36,735 bases of DNA. It comes from a virus. This document shows positions 18,652 through 23,004 of this stretch, one piece after another. The notes under the pieces were generated by a model. It had not been told where the DNA came from, searched no databases, and saw nothing but the letters and a program-made list of their open reading frames with translations. Position numbers and translations under genes: made by a program. Positions within the stretch are counted from its first letter, which is position 1. Each line of letters begins with the position of its first letter. The DNA lies in IMG/VR virus record IMGVR_UViG_3300042992_001103, positions 1 to 36,735 of that record. One strand, given 5' to 3'.

Positions 18652-19292
18652 TTGGTTTCTTCTAGGGCTTGTCGAGCGAGAGTGCTGGCGTGTCCGCTAC
18701 GTGATTCAGCTACCCATTCCAACGCCTCTCTACACTTGACGAGCTTAGCGAGGGCGGTGTCGCGTTCGGATTTCACTTTCTCATATTCCGATACGATGAA
18801 TTGCGCGGCGACAATCTGATCGTCGAAGTCTATTTGAAGCTGCGGCCAGCACGCGGCAAGTTGCTCCCATGCCTCGCCAGTTTCTTTTGCTAAATTTATC
18901 CACTCATCACGTTGAGCCTGTGCGTTCTTTGCAAATAGGCGATGTTCTGTTCGCGTCTTGTGGTATAGCTGATTCAATTCTATCGCCTCGTCCCGTTCCT
19001 CCGTGCGCTCTGCGAGCTTGGCGAGGGCGGTGTCGCGTTGGGCAGTTCGTGTAGCGAGAATTTTCGCATCAATCAAAGCGTTTGCCTTTTGTGTTTCTTG
19101 TCGCTGTTTTATTTCTTTTCTAAACCGCTCGACAAGCTCATCACTTTCCTCCGTGCGCTCTGCGAGTGAGCGCTCGATGGTGCGGGCGAAGTCGGATTTG
19201 ACTACATACTGCTCGATGCCGTCTTGGTCGGTGTAGCTGTATTCAGCCGCATCAGTCAGCGGGCTATCGGATTTTTGTTGGTTGTTTTCCAT
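18648..19292 (-). CDS. Coiled-coil protein with internal repeats, 214 residues
   Basis: The start at 19292 gives MENNQQKSDSPLTDAAEYSY. It contains a TDAA motif and then a long helix with repeated units (SLAERTEESDELVERF, KLAERTEERDEAIELN, and RDTALAKL twice). The DNA shows two recent duplications: a 26-base unit at 18741 and 19014 (one difference) and an identical 21-base unit at 18996 and 19146. The start lies 29 bases inside the HNH gene, and a longer start would read in that gene's other frame. It is probably a phage coiled-coil accessory protein. Confidence 0.7.
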   Translation of the reverse strand: MENNQQKSDSPLTDAAEYSYTDQDGIEQYVVKSDFARTIERSLAERTEESDELVERFRKEIKQRQETQKANALIDAKILATRTAQRDTALAKLAERTEERDEAIELNQLYHKTRTEHRLFAKNAQAQRDEWINLAKETGEAWEQLAACWPQLQIDFDDQIVAAQFIVSEYEKVKSERDTALAKLVKCREALEWVAESRSGHASTLARQALEETK

Positions 19293-19704
19293 ATAATATA
19301 GCTGAATCTTTGTGTGCTTCGGTGTGATGCTTCTGGCATAGCCAATGGATTTCAAATGGCTTGCTGTAATCTTCATGGTGCGCTTGTGCATTTATGGCTC
19401 CGCAAATTACACAATCACCTCGCTCTAGTTTTCCGTCGAAAATTAACTGTCTGATTTTTTGACGCGATATTCTCTTTTGCGGGTCTCGCGACCTGTCGTA
19501 TTCCGTGCGCTTCTCCCTGTGTTTCTTATTCGTTCGGCTGTTCGATTCTTTCTTCTTTTGCTTAGAGATTGGGTCGCTCCAGATTTTAGCATTGTGAGCA
19601 GATTGCCATTCTTTTATTTCTGATTTATGTGCGGCCTTGTATTCACGGGCCTTGCGCAACTTCCGCTCGTATGATGTTTCAGTTGGTCGTTCGTTTGGTA
19701 TCAT
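19264..19704 (-). CDS. HNH homing-type endonuclease
   Basis: The 146-residue protein has a basic, DNA-binding N-terminal half (KKKESNSRTNKKHREKRTEY). The HNH core is GDCVICGAINAQAHHEDYSK, then PFEIHWLCQKHHTEAHK, with zinc ligands C98, C101, C123, H126 and catalytic H109/H110. It matches small phage HNH nucleases that cut DNA to spread themselves. It overlaps the start of the downstream coiled-coil gene by 29 bases, consistent with insertion there. Lower G+C than its neighbours also suggests transfer. Confidence 0.85.
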   Translation of the reverse strand: MIPNERPTETSYERKLRKAREYKAAHKSEIKEWQSAHNAKIWSDPISKQKKKESNSRTNKKHREKRTEYDRSRDPQKRISRQKIRQLIFDGKLERGDCVICGAINAQAHHEDYSKPFEIHWLCQKHHTEAHKDSAILYGKQPTKIR

Positions 19705-19829: not shown

Positions 19830-20059
19830 CCAATGTTTTGTTTTGAATTGTTCAACTCGGCTAGCTCTTCTGCTTTGACGAGTTCGGCAAAGCGGTTCAC
19901 GGCGCGGTCGTAATCATCAATCTCGCTCCTGCCGTCATCACCTTCGGGCAAGTCTCTTTCGATTGCTGCGGCAAGCTCTCTCTCTGCATCAGCAAGCGCA
20001 CGCCTCGCGGCTTGTAGCTTCGTCGGTTTCGTTTCGGTGATTTGGAATATTTCGTTCAT
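19826..20059 (-). CDS. Helical acidic protein, 77 residues
   Basis: The product has a helical hairpin (KLQAARRALADAERELAAAI and YDRAVNRFAELVKAEELAEL) with a short acidic loop (DLPEGDDGRSEID). Its architecture resembles small antirestriction or coiled-coil adaptor proteins, but I cannot assign it. It overlaps both neighbours by four bases. Confidence 0.65.
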   Translation of the reverse strand: MNEIFQITETKPTKLQAARRALADAERELAAAIERDLPEGDDGRSEIDDYDRAVNRFAELVKAEELAELNNSKQNIG

Positions 20060-20319
20060 AGATTTTTGTCGAGTAGCGCGAGAATTGCCAACCAGTTTTC
20101 CTTGGTTTTGAAGTAGATTTCCATCGTCGTATCAACGAGGTAGATGTCTATGCCAAACAAGAGGGTGTCGTCCTTGTAGGCGTAGTAGCCCTTAAAATCG
20201 ATCTGATTGAACGTGAACATCACGTAGCCGTCCACATAGACCTTGACCCTGCCGTTGTAGATCGCGAAGTCGTAGGTGTGGGGGGTCATAGCTGGATTTA
20301 GCACATTGTTGATGTTCAT
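20056..20319 (-). CDS. Hypothetical protein, 87 residues, first gene of accessory block
   Basis: A beta-rich protein with many aromatic residues (YDFAIYNGRVKVYVDGYVMF and YAYKDDTLLFGIDIYLVDTT). No family recognised. It is the first gene after the 725-base structured gap. Its ATG is preceded by AACCGAACCAAT on the minus strand and, 32 bases upstream, by copy B of the 40-bp element shared with the 13637 gene, so a promoter probably lies here. Confidence 0.7.
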   Translation of the reverse strand: MNINNVLNPAMTPHTYDFAIYNGRVKVYVDGYVMFTFNQIDFKGYYAYKDDTLLFGIDIYLVDTTMEIYFKTKENWLAILALLDKNL

Positions 20320-20333
20320 ATTGGTTCGGTTCA
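20320..20333 (-). promoter_or_regulatory. C/A-rich translation leader
   Basis: On the minus strand TGAACCGAACCAAT abuts the ATG at 20319, with no Shine-Dalgarno site. It is the same type of leader as at 13637. Confidence 0.55.
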
Positions 20334-20350
20334 GGCGCCCTTTCTATACG

Positions 20351-20390
20351 CTGCTCGGAAGATGTCCAGAAAAATGTTTGGGAATGTTTT
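20351..20390 (-). promoter_or_regulatory. 40-bp upstream element, copy B
   Basis: Ungapped alignment to 13691-13730 gives 28 identities in 40, with GAAGATG and AGAAAAA conserved. On the minus strand TGGACA occupies the position of the -35 in copy A, and TATAGA follows after 14 bases, so core promoter spacing differs. It probably marks a common regulator or promoter class. Confidence 0.45.
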
Positions 20391-20479
20391 GAGCCTCTTT
20401 CTCTCTCCGTATTCTATCTCCACTGCGATGGTGAAGTAGCAACTGATGGTGATTTTATTCCTGGATTATTCCGGGATGA

Positions 20480-20968
20480 TAGTCCGACAATGCCGAGCCT
20501 TGGATAACGGCATAGCAAGCCCCGGTTAAGGGCCTGCCATGATGGAAAGATCGTCCGCATAAAGCAGTCGCCTGTGGTATCCGTCATCCCTTGCGGGAGT
20601 CAGCATGAGGGCCAGGTATTCTTTTGGCTTCGCCACCCTTGCTGTATCGTCAGCGCTGACAGACTCTCACACTCATCGTGTGACTCTTTAACCGAGGGAG
20701 CTTGCTCACCCCGGGCCTGTTGATGAATTGCCGCCATCACCTTTTACAGGGCTGCGGGTAACACCTTATCACGCCCCTATGCTGACGTGACAGAGGTTCA
20801 CGACACCCCGGCTCTAAGTCGGGCGCACCGTGAGGCCGCATACGCAAAGAAAAACCGAACGGTTGCGCGTTCGGTTATCTCCCAGTCTTCGGACTGGCCA
20901 TTCAGTGTCGCCCTTTCGGGTTTCGTGAACTTTGAAATTGTCTTCGCACGCAACTGCGATGTGCGTGC
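20480..20968 (-). ncRNA. Large structured RNA candidate, part resembling a group II intron 5' end
   Basis: About 490 bases carry at least ten strong hairpins: 20490-20513, 20587-20598, 20649-20660, 20667-20683, 20786-20802, 20853-20876, 20882-20897, 20911-20920 and 20946-20968, plus a GGC/GCC stem near 20626. Several have GNRA loops on the minus strand (TCCC-GCAA-GGGA, CCC-GAAA-GGG). After the terminator at 20846-20876 the minus strand reads GTGCGCCC (20828-20821), the group II GUGYG start. Its GCGCCC can pair with GGGGCGT at 20777-20771, as in known introns. No domain V and no reverse transcriptase gene are present, so it would be a remnant, an ORF-less derivative or a different RNA class. 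A plus-strand RNA is also possible (C-TTCG-G loop at 20888). Confidence 0.45.
20846..20876 (-). terminator. Rho-independent terminator on the minus strand
   Basis: On the minus strand AACCGAACG, a six-base loop and CGTTCGGTT form a 9-bp perfect stem that runs into TTTTTCTTT. It lies downstream of the virion/lysis operon, whose last gene ends at 21203, and probably ends that transcript. Confidence 0.75.
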
Positions 20969-21044
20969 TCTCAATCAACTTTCACCAAACCATGCAAGCA
21001 TTATTTTCTTGCGCAACGATCTTTTTTACAGTAGCGCACCCCTC

Positions 21045-21221
21045 ATGCCAAACAAACCAGAAGCCGAATTGACCCTTGAGGAAGAGCTCAAGCATATCGA
21101 GGCTGCCCGGATGGAAGCAGAGTTCGAGGAGTTGGAACGGAGGTCGCGCGAGTTCTTTGAAAGGCTTGAGAAGCCACCTGTGCGCCTCGTGGCAGCGTTT
21201 TCTTACGCTGAGGGTATCTGA
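21045..21221 (+). CDS. Small charged protein on the opposite strand, 58 residues
   Basis: This is the only plausible plus-strand gene right of 3.7 kb. The product starts MPNKPEAELTLEEELKHIEA and has a long E/R amphipathic helix (MEAEFEELERRSREFFERLE), then ends PVRLVAAFSYAEGI. The amino-acid pattern looks protein-like, but no ribosome site is visible. The frame also stays open upstream through the structured region (from 20787). It overlaps the 3' end of the convergent gene by 19 bases. It may be an independent accessory (moron-type) gene. Confidence 0.45.
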   Translation: MPNKPEAELTLEEELKHIEAARMEAEFEELERRSREFFERLEKPPVRLVAAFSYAEGI

Positions 21222-21853
21222 CTGAGGGACTCAGCAACAAACTCGTAGAGCTCGGCGAATTTCTCCAGCTCGCCGGCAATCTCTTCACGAGCCTCATCGG
21301 ACATCTTGCCGATCCCATCCTTCCCACCCACACGCCGCATCCAAACATCGAACTCCTGGCTAATGCCGTGGATGGTGAGAATCCCATGTGTCTGCTGTTT
21401 CACGACAGAAGGATCAATCACCTCCCCATGCTGAATGGATGCCTTGAGCTGCGAAGGACTGAGCTTCTGCTCGCTGGCAATTTCAGACCACTTCTCCATC
21501 TGCTTGGGAGTGATGCCGGACCTGGCCAGCACCACGTAATGCCCGGTGCTGAGGTTGTCTTTACGAAGGGTTTCGGGAATGGTATTCACATACATGGCCG
21601 TGGTGACATCTCCAAGGTCAAATTCAAGCTGGCCCAATGAAGCGCCAACCTTCTCTTTGCCGAACTTCAGATCACCAAACTTGAGGTATCCAGCAAAGCC
21701 GAGATCCATCCGCTCCTTACCCCACTTGAAGATGCGCAGCCCCTCGTGCCACTCCTCGTAGCTCATGTCGTCTTTGAGGACGACGCCCTGATCCGTCAGG
21801 GTGATGCTGGTGTTGGAAAACTCAATGGTGAGGTCGGTTGGGTTGGTGTGCAT
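21203..21853 (-). CDS. Hypothetical protein, 216 residues
   Basis: The N terminus is beta-rich (LTIEFSNTSITLTDQGVVLK). The middle carries a helix-turn-helix-like stretch (GITPKQMEKWSEIASEQKLS, then PSQLKASIQHGEVIDPS), and the C-terminal half is helical and acidic (DEAREEIAGELEKFAELYEF). I do not recognise a family; the middle hints at DNA binding. The start has the C/A leader AATACAAACCAA, but lies 58 bases inside the upstream gene. It ends the virion/lysis operon. Confidence 0.7.
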   Translation of the reverse strand: MHTNPTDLTIEFSNTSITLTDQGVVLKDDMSYEEWHEGLRIFKWGKERMDLGFAGYLKFGDLKFGKEKVGASLGQLEFDLGDVTTAMYVNTIPETLRKDNLSTGHYVVLARSGITPKQMEKWSEIASEQKLSPSQLKASIQHGEVIDPSVVKQQTHGILTIHGISQEFDVWMRRVGGKDGIGKMSDEAREEIAGELEKFAELYEFVAESLSQIPSA

Positions 21854-22506
21854 TTGGTTTGTATTGGTTTGAATTTACGAAGGCGCCAGTGGTCCATCTT
21901 GGCTTTCATTTTGTAGCGGACCTTTGCGATGGCGCTCTTCTGTCCCTCGGCTGGTATCGGAATTTGAAGAGACGTGCAACACTCATCTCGCCCCCTCTTT
22001 ATCCACTCCACCGAGCATCCACATTCCCTCGCGCTCGCTCTCATCGTTGGAAATCCATTTGCCATCGCAAGCCGTGGCACCGCATGTAAAATCTGGTGAA
22101 CCCTCGCCAGCACATTCCTCTTGTCCGCCTTGAGTATAAATCCTGTCACACGCCCCAACATCATCCCTCTCTCCATCTCAATCTCCCTCGCCATCGGCAT
22201 CATCAACATCTCCGCTGTTTTCCTGATGATCGGCTCATACTTGAATCCGATAACCTCGATGATCAGATCCAGGTGGGTGTCGATGGTAGCAGCCATATCA
22301 GGCGTGTAGCTCATGGTCGATGCCCCCTCATGAATCTCCACAGCAGCGGACATCGTTTCAGTTTCGGGACTGAGGCCCAGTTCAGCCACTTTCTTCTTCC
22401 ACGACTCCGGTGCCTTCTCCCACTCCTTACGATACTCAGCGCTGTGCGCCTGTTGTTTAGCCTCGTAGTTGGATTCGCCAGGTAGGGTTTGCACGAGGTC
22501 GGCCAC
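21796..22506 (-). CDS. Hypothetical protein, 236 residues, GTG start
   Basis: The frame begins with GTG; an internal ATG lies at codon 53 (MSAAVEIHEG). Residues about 70-140 are helical with many methionines (IIRKTAEMLMMPMAREIEME). Residues about 150-190 form a helix-turn-helix-like unit with cysteines (FPTMRASARECGCSVEWIKR). A basic tail (KMKAKMDHWRLRKFKPIQTK) ends in T/P-rich residues written by the next gene's leader. It could be a DNA-binding regulator or a second packaging-type protein; I cannot decide. Confidence 0.65.
   Translation of the reverse strand: MADLVQTLPGESNYEAKQQAHSAEYRKEWEKAPESWKKKVAELGLSPETETMSAAVEIHEGASTMSYTPDMAATIDTHLDLIIEVIGFKYEPIIRKTAEMLMMPMAREIEMERGMMLGRVTGFILKADKRNVLARVHQILHAVPRLAMANGFPTMRASARECGCSVEWIKRGRDECCTSLQIPIPAEGQKSAIAKVRYKMKAKMDHWRLRKFKPIQTKCTPTQPTSPLSFPTPASP
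21854..21872 (-). promoter_or_regulatory. C/A-rich translation leader inside the upstream gene
   Basis: On the minus strand AAACCAATACAAACCAA abuts the ATG at 21853. It is embedded in the 3' end of the upstream gene, where it encodes low-complexity T/P/Q residues. Confidence 0.5.
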
Positions 22507-22536
22507 TAGCAGGTCGCTAAATGCCTGTCAATAGAA

Positions 22537-23004
22537 TTATAGCCGCGCAGCTTGAGCGTGCATCCAGTCAAAGTCCTTTACCCTCCCAAGGCTTACGAAT
22601 CCTTCGCTCTCAAAGATGCGCCACATCGCCAAGTATTCAGGCCGTGCAAACCGCGCCGTCGCGCCCGTCTCGCGGAGCGTGTTGCGATCTGGATCGAGGT
22701 CAATCGCCACTCCGTAACTATGGATGCTCCACGATGACTTGCTTCCCCGCTTCAATCTCACGTTCAAACACCCACCGAACAGGTCAATACCGAGTTCATG
22801 TAGTCTGTCGTATCCATACTCCGAAAGCAGCTTGGCGAAGATGCGCCGCATCGGGACGGCAACCTTTTCGTGACAGGTGATCTTTTGAAGCGACACGCTT
22901 TTATCCCACGCCAGCCGCATCGGGTAGGGTAACTGAATCGAGGTTTGATTCTCGCCCTTCGCGCCGAAAAACTTCGGGCACTCTGCTTCGGTAGGCCAAG
23001 TCAT
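22537..23004 (-). CDS. M15-family peptidase endolysin (VanY-like, L-Ala-D-Glu or D-Ala-D-Ala peptidase)
   Basis: From the ATG at 23004 the product is 155 residues. The zinc site is S-x-H95-S-Y-G-x-A-x-D102 in SSWSIHSYGVAIDLDPDRN, with the second histidine H149 in FDWMHAQ, matching the M15/VanY pattern. It would cut peptide bonds of the host cell wall at lysis. Longer in-frame starts upstream run through the holin gene and have no support; the chosen ATG overlaps the holin stop (ATGA). It follows the holin directly, a standard lysis pair. Confidence 0.9.
   Translation of the reverse strand: MTWPTEAECPKFFGAKGENQTSIQLPYPMRLAWDKSVSLQKITCHEKVAVPMRRIFAKLLSEYGYDRLHELGIDLFGGCLNVRLKRGSKSSWSIHSYGVAIDLDPDRNTLRETGATARFARPEYLAMWRIFESEGFVSLGRVKDFDWMHAQAARL

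Follow-up and report, generated by a model that had tools for sequence, protein, structure and literature searches.

A large non-coding locus in a phage genome

The DNA analysed here, hereafter the window, is a viral sequence of 36,735 nt (IMG/VR record IMGVR_UViG_3300042992_001103). Its longest stretch without a plausible gene lies at positions 20480-20968, in line with a sequence-only reading that had described it as the only long gap. The open-frame listing contains just short, spurious-looking frames across this stretch, and a Pfam search of its six-frame pieces gave no credible match, confirming that the stretch is non-coding; a 144-aa ORF running over it is probably spurious. A frame with a YxDD-box-like motif (RRLLYADDLSIMAGP; 20572-20540, minus strand) was judged a coincidence, as it has no family match and is not kept in the homologue described below. 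The element itself is slightly longer than these limits, extending from about 20990 to 20470 on the minus strand. Downstream of it lies a gene for an 87-aa protein (20056..20319, minus strand), which is widespread among phage contigs, and a phage endonuclease gene (phrog_2340; 19264-19704, minus strand) is located nearby.

Architecture of the predicted RNA

Read on the minus strand, the element begins with a series of hairpins upstream of an intrinsic terminator (20848..20876, minus strand; hairpin 20876-20853). The upstream hairpins are GCACGCA/UGCGUGC (20946..20968), evident from direct reading, CCC-GAAA-GGG (20911..20920), which has a GNRA loop, and CCAGUC-CGAA-GACUGG (20882..20897), all on the minus strand. 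The terminator is followed by a further minus-strand hairpin, CACG..CCCG..CGGG..CGUG (20799..20832), the 3' arm of which overlaps the closing helix of the core, so that the two may compete.

The predicted core consists of two domains, again on the minus strand. Domain 1 (20680..20802; model R1) is multi-branched, closed by GUGA(AC)CUCU/AGAGUCAC, and carries three hairpins: d1, with the loop AGCAUAGG (20769..20790), hairpin 2 (20722..20765) and hairpin 3 (20692..20714). Domain 2 (20576..20670; model R2) comprises a GUCAGC/GCUGAC closing helix, an GGCGAAGCC hairpin, the GNRA hairpin UCCC-GCAA-GGGA (20598-20587, minus strand) and GACGGAUACC, and is followed by a 3' hairpin, CAUGGC..GCUAUG (20511..20541). 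The sequence-only reading had counted at least ten hairpins with stems of 4-9 bp, some with GNRA loops on this strand; we can discern at least eight local hairpins there, two of them with GNRA loops.

Folded alone, the minus strand of 20440-20990 reaches -215.7 kcal/mol, compared with -183.5 +/- 6.2 in dinucleotide shuffles (z -5.2), while the plus strand of the same interval has a z of -3.1. The core by itself gives a modest single-sequence z of -2.2.

A homologue with conserved secondary structure

Viral contigs scanned for a 17-base motif yielded six stretches, five of which are chance matches and one a true homologue, in another phage (contig IMGVR_UViG_3300037493_003821, hereafter L060). 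The two RNAs share 84.8% identity over 125 columns and 73.6% over a further 174, in the same order and orientation, and the homology goes on weakly past the 3' hairpin to about 20475. Between the core domains, at the site corresponding to 20671..20679 (minus strand), L060 carries an insertion (1143-1308; 166 nt as cut) that is absent from the window copy. The 87-aa gene is also present in the L060 phage (91.6% identical DNA), where it is oriented divergently from the RNA.

Pairing is kept through sequence change at several places. In domain 1, hairpin 2 changes from GGUG/CAUC to AGCG/CGCU in L060 and hairpin 3 from CCGGGG/CCUCGG to CCGAUA/UAUCGG, the GNRA loop of domain 2 stays within its class (GCAA/GAAA), and the hairpin behind the terminator has a counterpart, ACGGGA..UCCCGU, in the same place. 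The R1 model contains 35 pairs, four with changes on both sides and none broken between the two copies, and the R2 model 18 pairs, three with both-side changes and none broken. Over the whole core, 59 of 77 pairs are unchanged, 8 differ on a single side and 10 on both sides, and none is broken, the absence of broken pairs being partly built in because the structures were predicted from that same alignment.

Shuffling the alignment columns provides the stronger and fairer test. In the RNA sense, the alignment of the 5' domain (core domain 1) scores -36.5 against -25.6 +/- 3.4 (z -3.2) and that of the whole core -78.2 against -55.8 +/- 5.1 (z -4.4), with none of 200 shuffles as good in either case; domain 2 beats 199 of 200 (z -3.0). 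On the opposite strand the effect vanishes for the 5' domain (z -0.3) and the whole core (z -0.6), though it is present when the short domain 2 is taken by itself (z -2.8). The number of both-side changes is less striking, since the 10 observed in the whole core compare with 6.4 expected and are attained in 11 of 200 column shuffles. In the weaker test, in which letters are shuffled within pairs, the observed pair counts were reached in 41 of 500 trials.

Compensatory changes and strand-specific folding of the alignment, the general marks of a structured RNA, are thus both found, on two sequences; as these are the only two sequences of this type available, the evidence is good but its covariation support is shallow. 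Single-base indels between the copies exclude a common reading frame. The sequence-only reading had named a lack of compensatory changes, or a conserved protein frame, as what would count against a functional RNA, and had listed an unknown RNA among its candidates; the homologue, its compensatory changes and the strand-specific alignment z all speak for that candidate, on the minus strand. We conclude that the two phages share a conserved predicted secondary structure on this strand. The evidence supports the view that the stretch of about 490 bases is a minus-strand gene for a structured non-coding RNA, as modelled here, of a family absent from Rfam.

The putative RNA gene is carried on an exchanged cassette

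A close relative of the window phage, G001 (L002/L030; 99% identity in both proteins that were searched), matches the window on both sides of the RNA, at 20314-20393 (95%) and 21025-22539 (95%). Between these flanks it has an unrelated segment of equal length that contains, instead of the RNA, a protein frame of 123 aa, HTH-like by eye (L002 6906-7277, plus strand), and the rest of its record contains no match to the window RNA. The window in turn retains what reads, by eye, as the leftover C-terminus, RLKTFPNIFLDIFRAAYRKGA*, of a frame that extends further in G001 (20331..20396, minus strand). The matching flanks, the differing segment and the frame remnant show, by comparison of the two genomes, that the RNA sits on an exchanged cassette (20394..21024, minus strand). 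Its absence from G001 further indicates that the RNA is dispensable at this locus. Beyond the cassette, the window encodes a 58-aa frame (MPNKPEAELTLEEELKHIEAARM..; 21045-21221, plus strand) whose DNA is conserved in G001.

Varied non-coding sequence at one locus in the L060 lineage

One gene order is common to twelve contigs, L060 among them: the 87-aa gene, a 98-aa ORF, the non-coding locus, a 50-aa ORF, a glycosyltransferase-like gene and terminase. Their flanking genes are about 90% identical, those of the other contigs being about 84-97% identical to those of L060. The non-coding locus is filled in all twelve, by four very different sequence types: type A in L060, type B in L221, L222, L230 and L241, type C in L231 and type D in L232-L237. 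Several of the twelve are almost duplicates of one another, so that the set represents fewer than twelve independent cases.

Within type D, L237 and L232 share a core that is about 99% identical behind the terminator, while the terminator itself and the part just before it are unrelated, which places the joint at the terminator T-run, the point where upstream part and core meet. The upstream part together with the terminator has therefore evidently been swapped independently of the core in this lineage. The upstream hairpins of L232 parallel those of the window: CCC-GGAA-GGG corresponds to the GNRA hairpin at 20911..20920, and in place of the hairpin at 20882..20897 stands CCCAAG-UGCU-CUUGGG, in which the whole stem is replaced and the pairing kept.

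The relationship among the types was approached with two descriptors, d1 (a hairpin with an AGC[AG][CT][AG] loop after ACCTC) and d2 (CTGAC, a tetraloop hairpin and ACGGA.AC). In 3.2 Mb searched on both strands, the two together match types A and D only, at similar spacings (194 and 210 nt); as they were written after both types had been seen, this shows specificity and not independent discovery. Hairpin d1 of type D has a different stem that is still paired (UGCACC/GGUGCA) and the loop AGCGUGAG. Unfiltered model searches in type D gave weak scores. All considered, homology between types A and D is likely. For type B, the best match of the R2 model falls at the collinear place and chance matches in the window score about equally, so that its homology to type A is possible; between types C and A the model search detects no relation. 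Types B, C and D gave no exceptional z when folded singly, and their structure is accordingly inferred from position and motifs.

In searches for further copies of type A, blastn against named phages and plasmids found no relative, the R1 model had no match in 50 phage records, further motif scans of viral contigs gave no copy beyond L060 among the matches listed, and a motif scan of one genome per species (84,980 species) returned seven chance matches and no copy. Nor did R1 match any of 388 genomes from the phylum of a Limisphaerales MAG, a phylum that was guessed and may not be that of the host. Types B-D had no blastn match in phages.

Comparison with known RNA classes

The sequence-only reading had proposed a group II intron derivative or a large RNA of the GOLLD or ROOL kind. 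Against Rfam 15, no family, including these three, matched the window at E < 5, and all three are absent from the matches of L060 (E < 10); neither the GOLLD nor the ROOL covariance model matches either copy. More generally, nothing exceeded the threshold in Rfam scans of the window, L060, types C and D and relatives. The sole low-E match in L060, to sar, falls below the gathering score and lies antisense to the terminator hairpin.

GOLLD and ROOL are large structured phage RNAs that form RNA-only cages and whose function is unknown (PMC12286853). Homo-oligomeric assembly is a further trait of the two classes. Like them, the window RNA is large, heavily structured, phage-borne and non-coding; unlike the many GOLLD RNAs that exceed 800 nt, it measures about 380-510 nt. 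GOLLD and ROOL also often lie near tRNA islands (a typical and not an obligatory setting), whereas ARAGORN detects no tRNA or tmRNA in the window or at L060-type loci. They therefore offer a fair analogy in kind, not a class to which the window RNA belongs.

Possible function and alternative explanations

We consider it probable that the locus is a structured non-coding RNA gene on an exchanged cassette, with a fast-evolving, terminator-gated core and a presumed accessory role. Transcription would begin upstream of 20970. We found no convincing sigma-70 promoter. A single transcript would cross the upstream hairpins, most of it stopping at the terminator and the rest yielding the core, and the terminator would limit the amount of core made. 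The core (about 330-380 nt) would be a stable accessory RNA that acts in trans in the course of infection, by analogy with other large phage RNAs, and would evolve under diversifying selection.

On a roughly even balance, we prefer this trans-acting RNA to a leader acting in cis. A leader would make the RNA the 5' UTR of the next genes, with put-like terminator passage or attenuation, and we regard it as somewhat unlikely, even though the hairpin module runs directly into the terminator with the core immediately behind and same-strand protein genes follow in both phages. The next genes differ, namely the 87-aa gene in the window phage and the 50-aa ORF and glycosyltransferase-like gene in L060, which is why we favour a trans role over a leader specific to one gene; a general antitermination leader, as against a gene-specific one, is possible. 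The put RNA of HK022 acts in cis to suppress pausing and termination (PMC9378689). The likeness is one of layout only, a phage RNA element tied to termination; the window unit includes the terminator, and the core of about 350 nt behind it far exceeds known put elements in size. Moreover, G001 does without the RNA.

That absence from a near-identical genome, at the site and elsewhere in the record, also weighs against a packaging RNA, a sequence-variable structured RNA encoded near terminase genes, which we hold to be improbable. Fast sequence variation would suit such a role, as would the distance of about 1.2 kb between the RNA and the large terminase gene in the L060 lineage; in the window that distance is about 5 kb. 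In the phi29 packaging RNA structure is likewise kept while sequence drifts, but the window RNA is larger and missing at the locus in a close relative, and its link to packaging is purely hypothetical. A DNA-level element, such as an integration site or the palindrome-rich ends of a mobile element, would fit an exchanged cassette with many palindromes; it is very improbable given that the folding conservation is strand-specific and that no terminal inverted repeats are seen. As for a group II intron derivative, a GUGCGCC stretch at 20828, the frame LLYADDLSIMA, resembling a reverse-transcriptase motif, and the position directly behind a terminator, where group IIC introns sit, all recall such elements. 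Yet no Rfam intron family matches at E < 5, blastn finds nothing in phages or plasmids, the YADD frame has neither a Pfam match nor a credible relative, and L060 keeps neither GUGCG nor the YADD box, which makes this origin extremely improbable. ORF-less group II introns exist, and the missing intron-encoded reverse transcriptase would not by itself be decisive.

Returning to the accessory RNA, we tentatively suggest that it belongs to a novel class of large phage RNAs in which the locus is fixed and its RNA content turns over, by replacement or rewriting, much more quickly than the neighbouring genes, the terminator serving as a recombination joint at which control part and core would be swapped independently. 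Such turnover, if true, would be expected from an RNA engaged in an arms race against a host target. In the literature searched, we found no earlier account of a phage RNA with such hypervariability. Only a few large structured RNAs are known from phages, and for the most familiar of them, GOLLD and ROOL, no function has been established. Modular exchange at a locus that is filled in every sampled member of the L060 lineage, in four forms, amounts to a natural experiment that could reveal the function of large phage RNAs and the forces behind their evolution.

A further feature is confined to one of the types. Type D contains a canonical T-arm, AAGGG-UUCAAUU-CCCUU, with what may be a closing helix beside it, an arrangement suggestive of a tRNA-like corner; type A has no canonical T-arm. 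The T-arm is shared with tRNA-like domains such as that of tmRNA, whereas the fold recognized by ARAGORN is absent. tRNA arrays beside the 87-aa gene occur in three distant contigs only (L278, L283 and L284). T-arm-like stem-loops that are not ARAGORN tRNAs were also observed in L254 (1707 and 2496), L264 (9933), L268 (9654 and 9960) and L279 (9974), several of them close to the 87-aa gene.
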